From Comamonas suwonensis (GTDB taxonomy: Bacteria > Pseudomonadota > Gammaproteobacteria > Burkholderiales > Burkholderiaceae_C), in contig NZ_JABBCQ020000020.1 of assembly GCF_012844455.2 (NCBI RefSeq), positions 1 to 64,000 on the forward strand: a stretch of 64,000 nucleotides of DNA. The letters are read 5' to 3'. The position numbers and the translations under genes are program-made. The notes under the pieces were generated by a model, which was not told the origin of the DNA, made no database searches, and saw only the letters and a list, made by a program, of their open reading frames with translations. The number at the start of each line of letters is the position of its first letter. The stretch's first letter is position 1. Positions 2,551 to 6,083 of the stretch are shown piece by piece.

Positions 2551-2841
2551 TTACTTCTCGACGACTGCGAACAGGTCGTCTTCCTTCATCACCAGCAGCT
2601 CGTCACCATCAACCTTGACGGTCTGGCCAGAGTACTTGCCGAACAGAACGCGGTCGCCGACCTTCACGTTCAGAGCGATTTGTTCGCCCTTGTCGTTGCG
2701 CTTGCCGGGACCCACTGCCAGCACTTCGCCTTGATCAGGCTTCTCTGCGGCGTTGTCGGGGATATAAATGCCCGAAGCCGTCTTGGTTTCGTTTTCGAGG
2801 CGCTTGACGATCACGCGATCGTGCAGGGGACGCAGGTTCAT
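2551..2841 (-). CDS. groES: Co-chaperonin GroES (Cpn10)
   Basis: Lid of the GroEL folding chamber; forms a heptamer in the cytosol. The frame is open further upstream, but the family start is '[15 protein letters not shown]', preceded by an AGGAGTT ribosome site, giving 96 residues, the normal length. The mobile-loop region '[16 protein letters not shown]' and the C-terminal '[19 protein letters not shown]' are typical. It is the first gene of groES-groEL. Confidence 0.98.
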
Positions 2842-2925
2842 ACCAACTCCTAAATACATCAACAAAGTTGAAACAAGACTTGCCAGCCTTCATGGCCGAC
2901 ATTCGGAATATGTAGGGTCAAGCTG

Positions 2926-2952
2926 TTAGCACTCAACCCCCTTGAGTGCTAA
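2926..2952 (-). promoter_or_regulatory. CIRCE operator (HrcA site) of groESL
   Basis: TTAGCACTC (2926-2934), a 9-base spacer, then GAGTGCTAA (2944-2952). This is a perfect match to the CIRCE consensus bound by the heat-shock repressor HrcA. It lies 85 bases upstream of the groES start, next to the promoter. Confidence 0.97.
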
Positions 2953-2979
2953 TAATAAGGCAATTTCCCGAGGTTTCAA
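2952..2979 (-). promoter_or_regulatory. groESL promoter
   Basis: On the minus strand, TTGAAA (2974-2979) and TATTAT (2952-2957) are separated by 16 bases. Each matches the housekeeping consensus at five of six positions. The element CTTGAAA also resembles the -35 box of heat-shock sigma-32 promoters, but the matching C-rich -10 is poor. The CIRCE operator begins exactly at the -10 box, so HrcA binding would block it. Confidence 0.65.
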
Positions 2980-3087
2980 GACCCAGCCTTGGGGGCTGAG
3001 AGGGCAAATTGTTCGCAGTTCAGGGTTTGTCCTGCTCTATATGTAACGTGTTTTTACAAATAGGCCTGAGTTTTGCTCCACCAGTGC

Positions 3088-5751
3088 ATGCCTCAGAAAC
3101 AACTCACCGCCCCGGTGCAGCAAGCGCAAGACCTGCTGCAGACAGACGCCTTCATCCCTCACATGCGTCAGGTGGCGCGATGTGAGAGTTCGCTGCAGGA
3201 GCTGAGCCTGATGTGGCGGCTCATTGAGTCATCTGCCAAGATGAATTGCCCGCAGGAGGCGCTAGCGCTGCTGCCCATGATGGCCGCGACGCGGGAGGGC
3301 TTTGAGCAGCTGGAGCAGGATTTGGTGCATTCCATGGTGGCTCAGGCTATTGAGGGCGTGAGGCGTGGATTGCACAGCCAGGCTCAGCATCTGATGGATA
3401 CGCTGGTGCGCAATCTTTATGAGCGAACGGCCGATGTGGGCTTTCTGGCCACCGATGTGTTGCTCTGCCGCTTTATGGCGGAGCTGGATATGCATACGGA
3501 CGACGATAAAGCGCAGATGACTGAGCGTCTGCTAGCCTACCGCAGCAAGTACACGGTTTATCAAAAGGTGCTGCTACTCGATTGCGAAGGCTATGTGCGG
3601 GCGAGCACGCAGGAGGGCGGGGCCCTACAAAGTGGGCCATGCCGCGACCCGCTGATTGCGCAGGCACTGCAAAGCCAAAGCTTTGTGCAGGCATTTGGTG
3701 CCACAGACTTGCTGCCAGATCAATCTCGTGGGCTGATTTATGCCCACCGTATGCTGAGCCCCGTCACGCAAATGCCTGTGGGCGTGCTGTGTCTGTGCTT
3801 TGATTTTGAGGGCGAGATGCAGGGCCTCTGGAGCGGGCGACGTTCAGACGCGGCTCATGAGTCAGAAACCAGCATAGCCCTGCTGCTGGATGAGCAAGAC
3901 CGGGTGCTTGCCAGCAGCGATGTGCACTGGATTGCAGCGGGTGTGCAGGTGAGGTCTCGCAAGAATGGTGCAAACCAGCTCTGGATTCATGGCGGACGCA
4001 CTTATTTGGTGCAATCGGCACGCTCGGCCGGCTATCAGGGCTATGGGGGCCCCAAAGGTTGGCGTGCGCAAATCATGGTGCCGCTTGAGCTGGCTTTCGG
4101 CACACATGGGCATAGCGACCTGCAAGAGGTGGATGCGGTGGTGGCCCAGGGCTTGCTGAGTCATGCGCATCGCTTTTGCCCACCTTTACACGCGATTCGC
4201 AGTGCGGCAGACACCATCAGGCGTGTGGTCTGGAACGGGCAGGTCATGACGGCAGGCAAGCAGGCGGACAACACAAGATTGCAGGCCGTGCTGGAGCAGA
4301 TTGGTGAGACGGGCGCGCGCACCAACGAGGTATTCACCCAGTCCATTCGCTCGCTCTACAGCACGGTGCTGGCGACGGCGCTGGACGATAACCGCTTGCT
4401 GACGCGTTTGCTGGTGGATTTGCTGGACCGCAATCTCTACGAGCGTGCCAACGACTGCCGCTGGTGGGCGTTGACGCTGCAATTGCCAGCCTTGCTGCAA
4501 ACGCTGAAAGAAGGCAATGCGGCTGAAAATGCGAGCGCTGAAGTGTGTGAGTTGCTCACGGCCATCCATGCGCTTTACACCGTGTACCAGCAAATCATGG
4601 TGTACGACGTCAGCGGCAAGATTGTGGCGACGAGCCTGCAAGGCGGGGCCGAGGATGTGTTGACAGGTCGCTTTGTCGATCAGGAAAGCCTGCTCAAAGT
4701 GCTGGCCTTGAAAGGCACGCAGGCTTATCACGTCTCTGCTTGGTGCCCTTCTGCGCTGTATGAGGGGGCGGGGCCGACTTATGTTTATCACGCTGCCATT
4801 CGTTCTCCAAGCGGCGAGCTGCTGGGTGGAATTGGCCTGATCTTCCATGCGCAACGCGAGTTTCAGGCCATGCTGCAAGGTGTGCTGGGCTCGCAGGCAG
4901 AGCATCGAGCGGAGGGTGCTGGCAGCAGGCAGGTCGCGTATCTCAATCGCTCAGGTGTTGTCATGTCTTCATCCTCGGCGCAAATGCTGCCGGGCATGGT
5001 GCTGGATTTACCGGCAGACATGCTGGCTTTGCCTGCAGGCCAGAGCATTTCGCGGGCCATGGCGTACCAAGGCCAGTACTGCGTGGTGGCGGTGACGGCA
5101 GGCAGCGGCTACCGCGAGTTCAAGCGCAGCGATGGCTATGAGGAAGATGTTTTGGCCCTGTCCGTGCAGGCCTTCGGGCCGGTGCAGGGGGATGCGCAAG
5201 CCGCAGTCTGGCGTCGCAATACTCATGTGCAGAGCCTGCCGTCGGCCACATCCACAACTGGTGCAAGCATGGAGATGGCGACGTTCTTTGTGGGGCAAAG
5301 CGTGCTGGCTCTGGATGCAGCCTGCGTGCTGGAGGCGCAAAGCGCCGCTGAAATTGCTCCCATCTCAGCAGGGCGCTTGCCTCACTGCGTGGGCACATTG
5401 GCGCGGCGCAGCCAAGGTGCTGTGGCGGGCTATGTCTGGGTGTTTGATCTGGGTGCTTTGCTCTACGGCAAGCCGCTGATCAGAAGCCAACAAAGTCAGG
5501 TGATTGTGCTGGCGCACCAGGGGCTGAAGCTGGGTTTGCTGGTCAGCGATCTGGAGGGGGTTGCCAGACTGGATGCGCGGCAGCTGCGTGCTGCGCCTGC
5601 GCTGGCCCATTCGGCGGATGCGCTGGTGGACCGCTTGATCCAGGCTAATGGCGGCGATTTGCTGATTCAGTGCCTGAATGTGGCGGCGCTGGTGCAAATG
5701 CTCAAAGCGCCTGCACCAGTCCAAGTGGCAATGGGCGCTGCGACTTACTGA
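3088..5751 (+). CDS. Large cytoplasmic protein with two Cache/PAS-like units and a CheW-like C-terminus
   Basis: 887 residues from the first ATG; a TTG at 3073 would add five. I see no signal peptide or membrane segment. Two similar units follow each other. Each starts with a helical 'RNLYER' motif (3409 and 4429 on the DNA, 340 residues apart), continues with a PAS/Cache-like strand set ('YTVYQKVLLLDCEGYVRAS' and 'YTVYQQIMVYDVSGKIVAT'), and ends with an aromatic/glycine segment ('SAGYQGYGGPKGWRAQIM' and 'GSGYREFKRSDGYEEDVLA'). The last 120 residues, from about 5272, have the pattern of CheW coupling domains ('ATFFVGQSVLALDA', 'VGTLARRSQGAVAGYVWVFD', 'LKLGLLVSDLEGVARL'). A role in chemotaxis or pilus signalling is inferred from the domain only. 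No other che gene is nearby. The 3' end overlaps the convergent H-NS gene by seven bases. Confidence 0.7.
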   Translation: MPQKQLTAPVQQAQDLLQTDAFIPHMRQVARCESSLQELSLMWRLIESSAKMNCPQEALALLPMMAATREGFEQLEQDLVHSMVAQAIEGVRRGLHSQAQHLMDTLVRNLYERTADVGFLATDVLLCRFMAELDMHTDDDKAQMTERLLAYRSKYTVYQKVLLLDCEGYVRASTQEGGALQSGPCRDPLIAQALQSQSFVQAFGATDLLPDQSRGLIYAHRMLSPVTQMPVGVLCLCFDFEGEMQGLWSGRRSDAAHESETSIALLLDEQDRVLASSDVHWIAAGVQVRSRKNGANQLWIHGGRTYLVQSARSAGYQGYGGPKGWRAQIMVPLELAFGTHGHSDLQEVDAVVAQGLLSHAHRFCPPLHAIRSAADTIRRVVWNGQVMTAGKQADNTRLQAVLEQIGETGARTNEVFTQSIRSLYSTVLATALDDNRLLTRLLVDLLDRNLYERANDCRWWALTLQLPALLQTLKEGNAAENASAEVCELLTAIHALYTVYQQIMVYDVSGKIVATSLQGGAEDVLTGRFVDQESLLKVLALKGTQAYHVSAWCPSALYEGAGPTYVYHAAIRSPSGELLGGIGLIFHAQREFQAMLQGVLGSQAEHRAEGAGSRQVAYLNRSGVVMSSSSAQMLPGMVLDLPADMLALPAGQSISRAMAYQGQYCVVAVTAGSGYREFKRSDGYEEDVLALSVQAFGPVQGDAQAAVWRRNTHVQSLPSATSTTGASMEMATFFVGQSVLALDAACVLEAQSAAEIAPISAGRLPHCVGTLARRSQGAVAGYVWVFDLGALLYGKPLIRSQQSQVIVLAHQGLKLGLLVSDLEGVARLDARQLRAAPALAHSADALVDRLIQANGGDLLIQCLNVAALVQMLKAPAPVQVAMGAATY

Positions 5752-6083
5752 ACCGGGAAGGGATTCTTTTCGTCGAGGGGTGCGCTGTAGTCGATCACCG
5801 GGGTGGTCTTGATCTCGTACTGGCTGCGATCCTTGCCCTCAATCCACTTTGGCGGCTTGCCGCGGCCTGTCCAGCTGGCACCGCTTTCGGGGTCGTAGTA
5901 CTTGGCTTCGACCTTTTTCTTCTCTTCAGGCTTCCAGGGGAAAACTTGCTGCGAGGTAAAGCCGAAAGTGTCGATCAATTGCTTGATGGTGGCCAGGGCT
6001 TCTTTGGCCTCGGTGTGGCGCATTTCTTCAATGCGCTTGTCCAGTTCGTCTTTGCGAGCAATAAGTTCTTTGTAGCTAGGCAT
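5745..6083 (-). CDS. H-NS family nucleoid protein
   Basis: 112 residues from ATG; a TTG one codon upstream is less likely. The N-terminal half is a charged coiled-coil oligomerisation segment ('ARKDELDKRIEEMRHTEAKE'). The C-terminal half has the H-NS DNA-binding core 'DPESGASWTGRGKPPKWI', where 'GRGKPP' corresponds to the AT-hook-like loop that enters the minor groove of AT-rich DNA. Such proteins silence horizontally acquired AT-rich genes. This is the short betaproteobacterial type, of which genomes usually hold several copies. Its last bases overlap the 3' end of the CheW-like gene on the other strand. Confidence 0.88.
   Translation of the reverse strand: MPSYKELIARKDELDKRIEEMRHTEAKEALATIKQLIDTFGFTSQQVFPWKPEEKKKVEAKYYDPESGASWTGRGKPPKWIEGKDRSQYEIKTTPVIDYSAPLDEKNPFPVQ

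Follow-up and report, generated by a model that had tools for sequence, protein, structure and literature searches.

What does a protein do that carries two double Cache (dCache) domains and a CheW-like domain on one soluble chain? dCache domains usually sit outside the cell and are treated as leading extracellular sensors, and CheW usually plugs into the chemotaxis machinery and is treated as a passive coupler. In the accessible text of a published survey, 78% of Cache domains are confidently predicted to be extracellular (PMC4822843). The question is raised by a gene in a 64,000-nucleotide stretch of Comamonas suwonensis DNA (contig NZ_JABBCQ020000020.1, positions 1 to 64,000), called the window below. 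We read its product, with moderate confidence, as a cytosolic sensor-adaptor of the chemosensory machinery that feeds metabolite signals into CheA arrays and is perhaps coupled to cyclic di-GMP (c-di-GMP). The gene and its elements are the following.

3088–5751, plus strand: whole gene, 887 residues, soluble; two units of helix-turn-helix and dCache, and a CheW-like end
3166–3420, plus strand: helix-turn-helix 1, helices 27–53 and 62–111, running into dCache 1 (AlphaFold2 secondary structure)
3376–4101, plus strand: dCache unit 1, residues ~97–338, RNLYER at 108–113; structure comparison Z up to 17.0
4180–4467, plus strand: helix-turn-helix 2, helices 365–388 and 396–460, running into dCache 2, with VVWNG ahead of the turn (AlphaFold2 secondary structure)
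4363–5181, plus strand: dCache unit 2, residues ~426–698, RNLYER at 448–453; structure comparison Z up to 20.4
5275–5700, plus strand: CheW-like domain, residues 730–871; Pfam and fold (2ch4_Y, Z 17.9)

Overall architecture of the protein

The open reading frame is intact, from an ATG at 3088 to a stop codon that ends at 5751, with an in-frame TTG ahead of it at 3073. Across 874 codons aligned with the copy in C. testosteroni (L002), codon positions 1, 2 and 3 differ 169, 138 and 384 times, the pattern to be expected if the protein is maintained. No membrane helix or signal peptide is found in the whole 887-residue protein by Kyte-Doolittle hydropathy, the sole test applied. The 19-residue mean peaks at 1.70, within the CheW domain, and at the N-terminus it does not exceed 0.21. 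By the same measure, the flanking membrane helices typical of extracytoplasmic dCache sensors are absent. In the initial annotation of the window, the protein was described as soluble and of one piece, with two Cache units, a CheW end and neither signal peptide nor transmembrane helix, and this description is borne out by the hydropathy, by Pfam, by the matches within the family and by the folds of the predicted model.

The model was produced with AlphaFold2 from an alignment of the window protein and 49 relatives, picked from 80 loci kept of 120 found. It has a mean predicted local distance difference test (pLDDT) score of 84.5 and a predicted template modeling (pTM) score of 0.83. The CheW domain occupies residues ~725–874 of the model, and the two helix pairs and the two dCache domains lie at the residues given above.

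Two related dCache domains

The motif RNLYER starts at residues 108 and 448, a spacing of exactly 340, and Gly/aromatic motifs follow in both units (GYQGYGGPKGW from residue 315 and GYREFKRSDGY from residue 674). Aligned half against half, the units reach a Smith-Waterman score of 129, compared with a mean of 34 (standard deviation 5) and a maximum of 55 in 300 shuffles. BLASTP gives an E value of 2e-11 for the same pair, and profile-profile comparison gives 99.1% (E 1e-18). The two related segments about 340 residues apart, first pointed out in the initial annotation, are thus confirmed. The halves align by profile and match the same dCache folds, without direct superposition of one on the other.

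Among the chains aligned, dCache 2 is matched by 9a69_B (Z 20.4, root mean square deviation (rmsd) 3.5, 258 residues), by 3lid_B (Z 19.9) and by DctB entries (Z 19.1–19.5), and dCache 1 by 4jgp_B, the KinD sensor (Z 17.0, 202 residues), and by PctA and CtaA (16.9). A common fold does not by itself demonstrate function. The units had been labeled Cache/PAS-like; more exactly, both are full double-Cache domains.

The Pfam family dCache_1 (PF02743) is matched by 49 of the 50 aligned members at E ≤ 1 (best 2.8e-15), the exception being the window copy. Since the isolated halves of that copy gave no Pfam match, recognition of the dCache domains needed the context of the family. A sequence search of the PDB with the window protein gave no match at E ≤ 1. 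Diacid_rec is matched by 28 of the 50 members (best E 5.6e-5), and this Cache family is principally intracellular according to the accessible part of the survey cited above (PMC4822843).

The CheW-like domain

The C-terminal end matches CheW (PF01584) with 43.2 bits in the whole protein and 47.5 bits when isolated, the Pfam cut-off being 23.5, and all 50 aligned members match this family at E ≤ 1. The CheW-like end proposed initially therefore scores well above background. In the model, the domain has the CheW fold (2ch4_Y, Z 17.9, rmsd 2.7, 140 residues aligned). NCBIfam, searched with the whole protein and with the C-terminal end, gave no CheW and one chance match (E 0.12), far under its cut-off. 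Pfam at E ≤ 10 gives CheW alone in the window protein, and a receiver domain of the CheV type is absent.

Distribution of the family and single-unit relatives

Relatives that are 43–73% identical, mostly over the full length, are found in Comamonas, Acidovorax, Simplicispira, Herminiimonas, Noviherbaspirillum, Methylotenera, Thiobacillus and others, and the architecture is conserved across Betaproteobacteria. The 50 aligned members have open full-length frames, with a mean column identity of 57%. The same domains are found in a more distant group, with CheW over the cut-off in all 10 proteins scanned and dCache_1 matched in all 10 and over the cut-off in 8. Among 200 sampled genomes of the organism's own taxonomic family, 42 have a match, two of which are weak and cover the CheW part only. 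The spread is patchy, and G128, a single-contig genome of the same genus, has no match. Broken-looking copies also occur: that in G003 (L220) is in four pieces, that in G137 (L187) has one stop within the match, and L081 is in two frames.

A profile search of 397 genomes of the phylum gave, besides matches to the CheW part, 32 places, spread over 31 genomes, where the match is confined to the second RNLYER-dCache unit and its surroundings. The 20 of these loci that were enlarged (L156–L175) encode single-unit proteins of 302–441 residues. In each of the eight that were scanned, MCPsignal is over the cut-off (E 1.9e-13 to 7.9e-24) and is followed by dCache_1, at E 1.7e-4 or better in all eight and over the cut-off in just one. 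A protein of Burkholderia stagnalis (WP_060148510.1), annotated as a 'methyl-accepting chemotaxis protein' (MCP), likewise has MCPsignal and dCache_1, the latter under the cut-off. By profile-profile comparison, the dCache halves of the window protein match the single-unit dCache with 99.5 and 99.8%. The single-unit proteins resemble the window protein in their homologous RNLYER-dCache and in the order of the parts, a tip or hairpin followed by the sensor. Unlike it, they have one unit, a recognizable MCPsignal and no match to CheW in the eight scanned or in the B. stagnalis protein.

These proteins (L156–L175, and also L238:4680–5717) form a family of about 350 residues with an MCP tip at the N-terminus and a dCache domain at the C-terminus, so that the two parts stand in the opposite order to that usual in receptors. 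MtpA of Methylobacterium, a cytosolic MCP according to the accessible text of PMC10613068, might belong to this group. As the relatives consist of an MCP tip and one dCache domain, the window protein has the appearance of such a receptor, facing inward, that was duplicated, whose tips have eroded until their sequence is no longer recognizable, and that was fused to a coupling protein of its own. We infer that it arose by duplication of a soluble receptor with an MCP tip and a C-terminal dCache domain, followed by fusion to CheW.

The helix-turn-helix stretches

Each dCache domain is preceded by a helix-turn-helix, overlooked in the initial annotation, at the place that the MCP tip takes in the relatives of about 350 residues. 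The helix pairs 27–53/62–111 and 365–388/396–460 are read as folding back into hairpins, a shape taken from the secondary structure of the model and not from its coordinates. The highest conservation in the family is found in these stretches, with mean majority fractions of 0.80 (residues 27–96) and 0.79 (residues 365–425), as expected of interaction surfaces; the fractions for the dCache units are 0.76 and 0.69. The VVWNG motif of the second helix-turn-helix is present in all 50 rows.

In the single-unit proteins, the end of the tip motif is located 66 residues before RNLYER in 12 of the 17 cases, among the 20, that the full motif allowed to be measured, and 62, 62, 65, 69 and 69 residues before it in the others. 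The value of 65 comes from L175, which is without RNLYER, so that another string served as the end point; L160 was matched only by a shorter pattern, and L159 and L161 had no match. The predicted turns of the window protein are 51 and 56 residues ahead of RNLYER, distances taken from mid-turn and hence not strictly comparable with 66. Each hairpin is most naturally read as an MCP tip that has worn down.

Co-occurrence with CheA

CheA (PF02895, E ≤ 1e-15) is found in 38 of 40 carrier genomes, compared with 89 of the 160 other genomes of the taxonomic family (Fisher p 7e-7, uncorrected for kinship). The 40 carriers are the 42 genomes mentioned above minus G134 (2.9e-5) and G163 (4.1e-4), the weak hits to the CheW part only. 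The two carriers without CheA at this threshold are G052 and G150. The assembly of G052 is in 340 contigs and has 36 MCP matches and 3 CheW matches; as it is fragmented and has many MCPs, the missing CheA may be an effect of the assembly. Moreover, when 50 of the 80 loci were traced to their 50 carrier genomes, the CheA dimerization domain is matched at E ≤ 1e-5 in 49, and at 1.3e-5 in the fiftieth.

The genome of the window has one CheA together with a CheW on contig C64, a PilI-like CheW and a 2185-residue frame containing CheW on contig C44, and 17 MCP matches. None of its other CheW matches (E ≤ 0.001), its MCP matches (E ≤ 1e-5) or its CheA dimerization-domain matches (E ≤ 1e-15) lies on contig C12, in keeping with the initial remark that no other che gene is nearby.

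Neighboring genes

A gene for a GGDEF/EAL protein is a recurrent neighbor in other genomes, which the initial annotation overlooked. It adjoins the sensor gene in 25 of 120 loci, compared with about 1.5 expected by chance (a rough rate from the organism's own genome, assuming about 4300 genes), and 95 loci show none. The count is rough, as adjacency was judged from open frames with a gap of up to 400 bp, and the frames of L069 and L080 are overextended. In nine loci (L013, L019, L035, L053, L054, L069, L072, L080 and L185), from Paucimonas, Rhodoferax, Rugamonas, Giesbergeria and others, the neighbor shares the strand of the sensor gene and lies immediately upstream of it; six of these neighbors were scanned, all of them GGDEF-EAL proteins that also have GAF or PAS domains. 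These upstream genes often overlap the sensor gene, or nearly so, and are candidate operon partners. Ten Methylotenera-like loci have a divergent neighbor, and the two scanned are PAS-GGDEF-EAL proteins. Altogether, 21 of the 25 loci have a high-scoring (dual-domain) neighbor and four (L047, L065, L068 and L188) a low-scoring one only.

On a FastTree tree, which carries long-branch warnings and skips four loci, the presence of this neighbor requires 14 changes, at least nine of them forced by well-supported branches. The shuffled mean is 23 changes, and none of 500 shuffles is as low as 14. The 25 cases are not independent events, because related loci each count separately and those with the neighbor cluster on the tree. 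Antisense shadow frames aside, no conserved neighbor is found in the 22 loci of the distant group or the 20 of the single-unit group. Contig C12 has no GGDEF/EAL hit, and the window gene is without such a neighbor.

In the window, the gene is flanked by groES/groEL and by an H-NS-type gene (PF00816), all on the minus strand. A perfect inverted repeat, TTAGCACTC-N9-GAGTGCTAA, is located at 2926–2952 between groES and the sensor gene, nearer to groES, with 0.00 expected by chance; it is of the CIRCE type. It is expected to act on groESL by way of HrcA, and its influence might extend to the divergent sensor gene. No promoter for the sensor gene was found in 2800–5900. The one promoter-like site there is on the minus strand (0.9 expected) and ends on the repeat.

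Conservation of the fusion next to groESL/H-NS, a possibility raised in the initial annotation, is not general. In a search of 125 stretches at E ≤ 1e-8 (one of which, L195, is without the gene, and many of which have short flanks), both GroEL and H-NS adjoin the gene in three C. testosteroni-type loci (L002, L005 and L043). L003 has H-NS alone, its contig ending before any groEL. The C. jiangduensis copy has two separate GroEL fragments about 0.6–1.4 kb downstream (L076:8407–9230), which are a truncated groEL or a contig problem. Neither protein was found at this threshold in the remaining stretches. The position of the gene beside groESL/H-NS tells little about its function.

Proposed mechanism and alternatives

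What is shown is the architecture, its conservation and the association with CheA across genomes. As a sensor-adaptor, the protein would be held by its CheW end in or beside CheA/CheW rings, and its two cytoplasm-facing dCache domains would bind intracellular small molecules. The dCache domains would then change conformation, and this change, relayed by the hairpins and the CheW domain, would affect the activity of CheA or the assembly of arrays. The adjoining GGDEF-EAL protein would probably share this signal in many species, giving a link to c-di-GMP. A more specific proposal, which we make tentatively, is that receptor and coupler are combined on one soluble chain, as two tandem inward-facing units (each an eroded MCP-tip hairpin and a dCache domain) with a CheW of their own. 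Such a prefabricated array module would need no transmembrane receptor to carry signals of intracellular metabolites to CheA, and would simultaneously, in many species, set c-di-GMP through the adjoining GGDEF-EAL protein.

Several observations weigh against the sensor-adaptor reading. The CheW domain has the lowest conservation in the family (mean majority fraction 0.59). The NLRG-type motif, a mark of classical CheW coupling proteins, is present in the CheW and the PilI-like CheW of the organism's own genome and in none of the 50 members. No che gene was recognized among the neighbor clusters listed, most neighbors there being without identification. G150 has a member of the distant group (L196) as its only CheW match and 7 MCP matches, and is without CheA (best E 0.555); an assembly gap or a real loss is possible. 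No ligand motif was found: the amino-acid-type string R.W[YF], a crude self-devised string and not a formal motif, occurs in none of the 50 rows in either unit (for ligand motifs, see the accessible text of PMC10104139 and PMC11245519). Chemotaxis is lost in C. testosteroni CNB-1 when its 19 chemoreceptor genes are missing, as stated in the accessible text of PMC6600141, so that the sensor protein, if present there, is no substitute for receptors. Finally, profiles of the hairpins compared with the single-unit tips or with the MCPs of the same genome reach a probability of 0.1–1.0%.

Sequence proof that the hairpins are MCP tips thus failed, the hairpin profiles not rising above the controls. 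Reversed controls gave 0.1–1.3%; for hairpin 2 they exceeded the real comparison both times, and for hairpin 1 they were equal to it or lower. Hairpin 1 against hairpin 2 gave 1.5% with the 50-row profiles and 29% with broader ones. As a positive control, the single-unit tips matched the own-genome MCPs with 99.7% by profile (12 of the 15 own MCP loci were in the alignment, three being without the motif used for cutting), so the method is able to detect real tips. Because the comparison failed, descent from tips rests on position, predicted helices and conservation.

Among the alternatives, the one that fares best is that the CheW-like domain no longer serves CheA and is a scaffold docking on the GGDEF-EAL enzyme, with the dCache domains tuning c-di-GMP turnover directly. 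The excess of such neighbors over chance, in nine loci upstream on the same strand and in ten divergent, together with the loss of the NLRG-type motif and the lack of a detectable CheA in G150, would fit this arrangement. We nevertheless consider it unlikely, in view of the strong co-occurrence with CheA, the 95 loci without the neighbor, and the partners being of two types, GAF- or PAS-containing. In addition, the GAF-GGDEF-EAL partner of Paucimonas has no full-length relative in the window's own genome, where hits start at partner residue 261 or later, and contig C12 is free of GGDEF/EAL hits.

Somewhat less probable again is a partnership with the Pil-Chp (type IV pilus) system rather than with the flagellar CheA. 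The sole CheA dimerization-domain match of G617 and of G625 is in a very large frame (1992 and 2098 residues), of ChpA size, and in the window's own genome contig C44 has a PilI-like CheW frame of 210 residues beside the 2185-residue frame with a CheW match, both names being inferred. However, G617 and G625 were reached through metagenome-assembled genome records, so that gaps may account for absences there; in addition, 4 MCP matches and a CheW frame of 321 residues are present in G625, and most carriers have a CheA of ordinary size too.

Competition for CheA was the alternative raised in the initial annotation. A dominant-negative protein of this kind, titrating CheA or receptors and so dampening signaling, would be the simplest outcome of a divergent CheW domain without a recognizable MCP tip: MCPsignal (PF00015) is not among the 20 Pfam families matched by any of the 50 members at E ≤ 1. 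Such a protein would need neither two complete dCache domains nor strongly conserved hairpins, both of which argue for an active sensor, and we regard this role as improbable. A functionless degenerate relic or an assembly artefact, to which the broken-looking copies in G003, G137 and L081 and the missing match in G128 might point, is already contradicted by the 50 full-length open frames, their column identity and the maintained-gene codon bias, and can be dismissed with near certainty.

Comparison with known systems

Sensor and CheW domains are located on one soluble chain, as in the CheW-fused (CheWS-like) sensors. The dCache fold is shared with the transmembrane chemoreceptors PctA, CtaA and Tlp3, whose dCache domains are periplasmic and anchored by membrane helices. 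In comparison, the window protein has no membrane segment, and its dCache domains follow a helical hairpin. CheV likewise combines CheW with a regulatory partner domain, a receiver, on one chain; by Pfam, the window protein has no receiver.

The closest parallel in design is CheWS of Treponema denticola, in which CheW is fused to a CheR-like sensor of S-adenosylmethionine (SAM) and which is reported to bind CheA; its authors describe it, in the accessible text, as the first characterized CheW-fused chemotaxis sensor (PMC10653840). Both proteins have CheW and a small-molecule sensor domain on one chain. CheWS has a single CheR-like SAM-binding domain C-terminal to CheW, whereas in the window protein CheW comes last, after two dCache domains and their helix-turn-helix stretches. 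The same source counts 30 undescribed CheW architectures, and the present one may be among them. A full-text literature search, which was without most subscription journals, gave no paper recognized as dealing with this family. CheW-fused sensors are thus already known from CheWS; what is added here is a tandem of cytosolic dCache domains that appear to descend from soluble receptors.

Implications

As members are present in isolates (Comamonas testosteroni, Herminiimonas and Methylotenera), the family is open to testing. The protein may allow metabolites inside the cell to influence behavior. If the sensor-adaptor reading is true, the family would show that coupling proteins are able to act as inputs themselves, with a sensing of small molecules that bypasses receptors. 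It would also provide a concrete place in which to seek cross-talk between chemotaxis and c-di-GMP.

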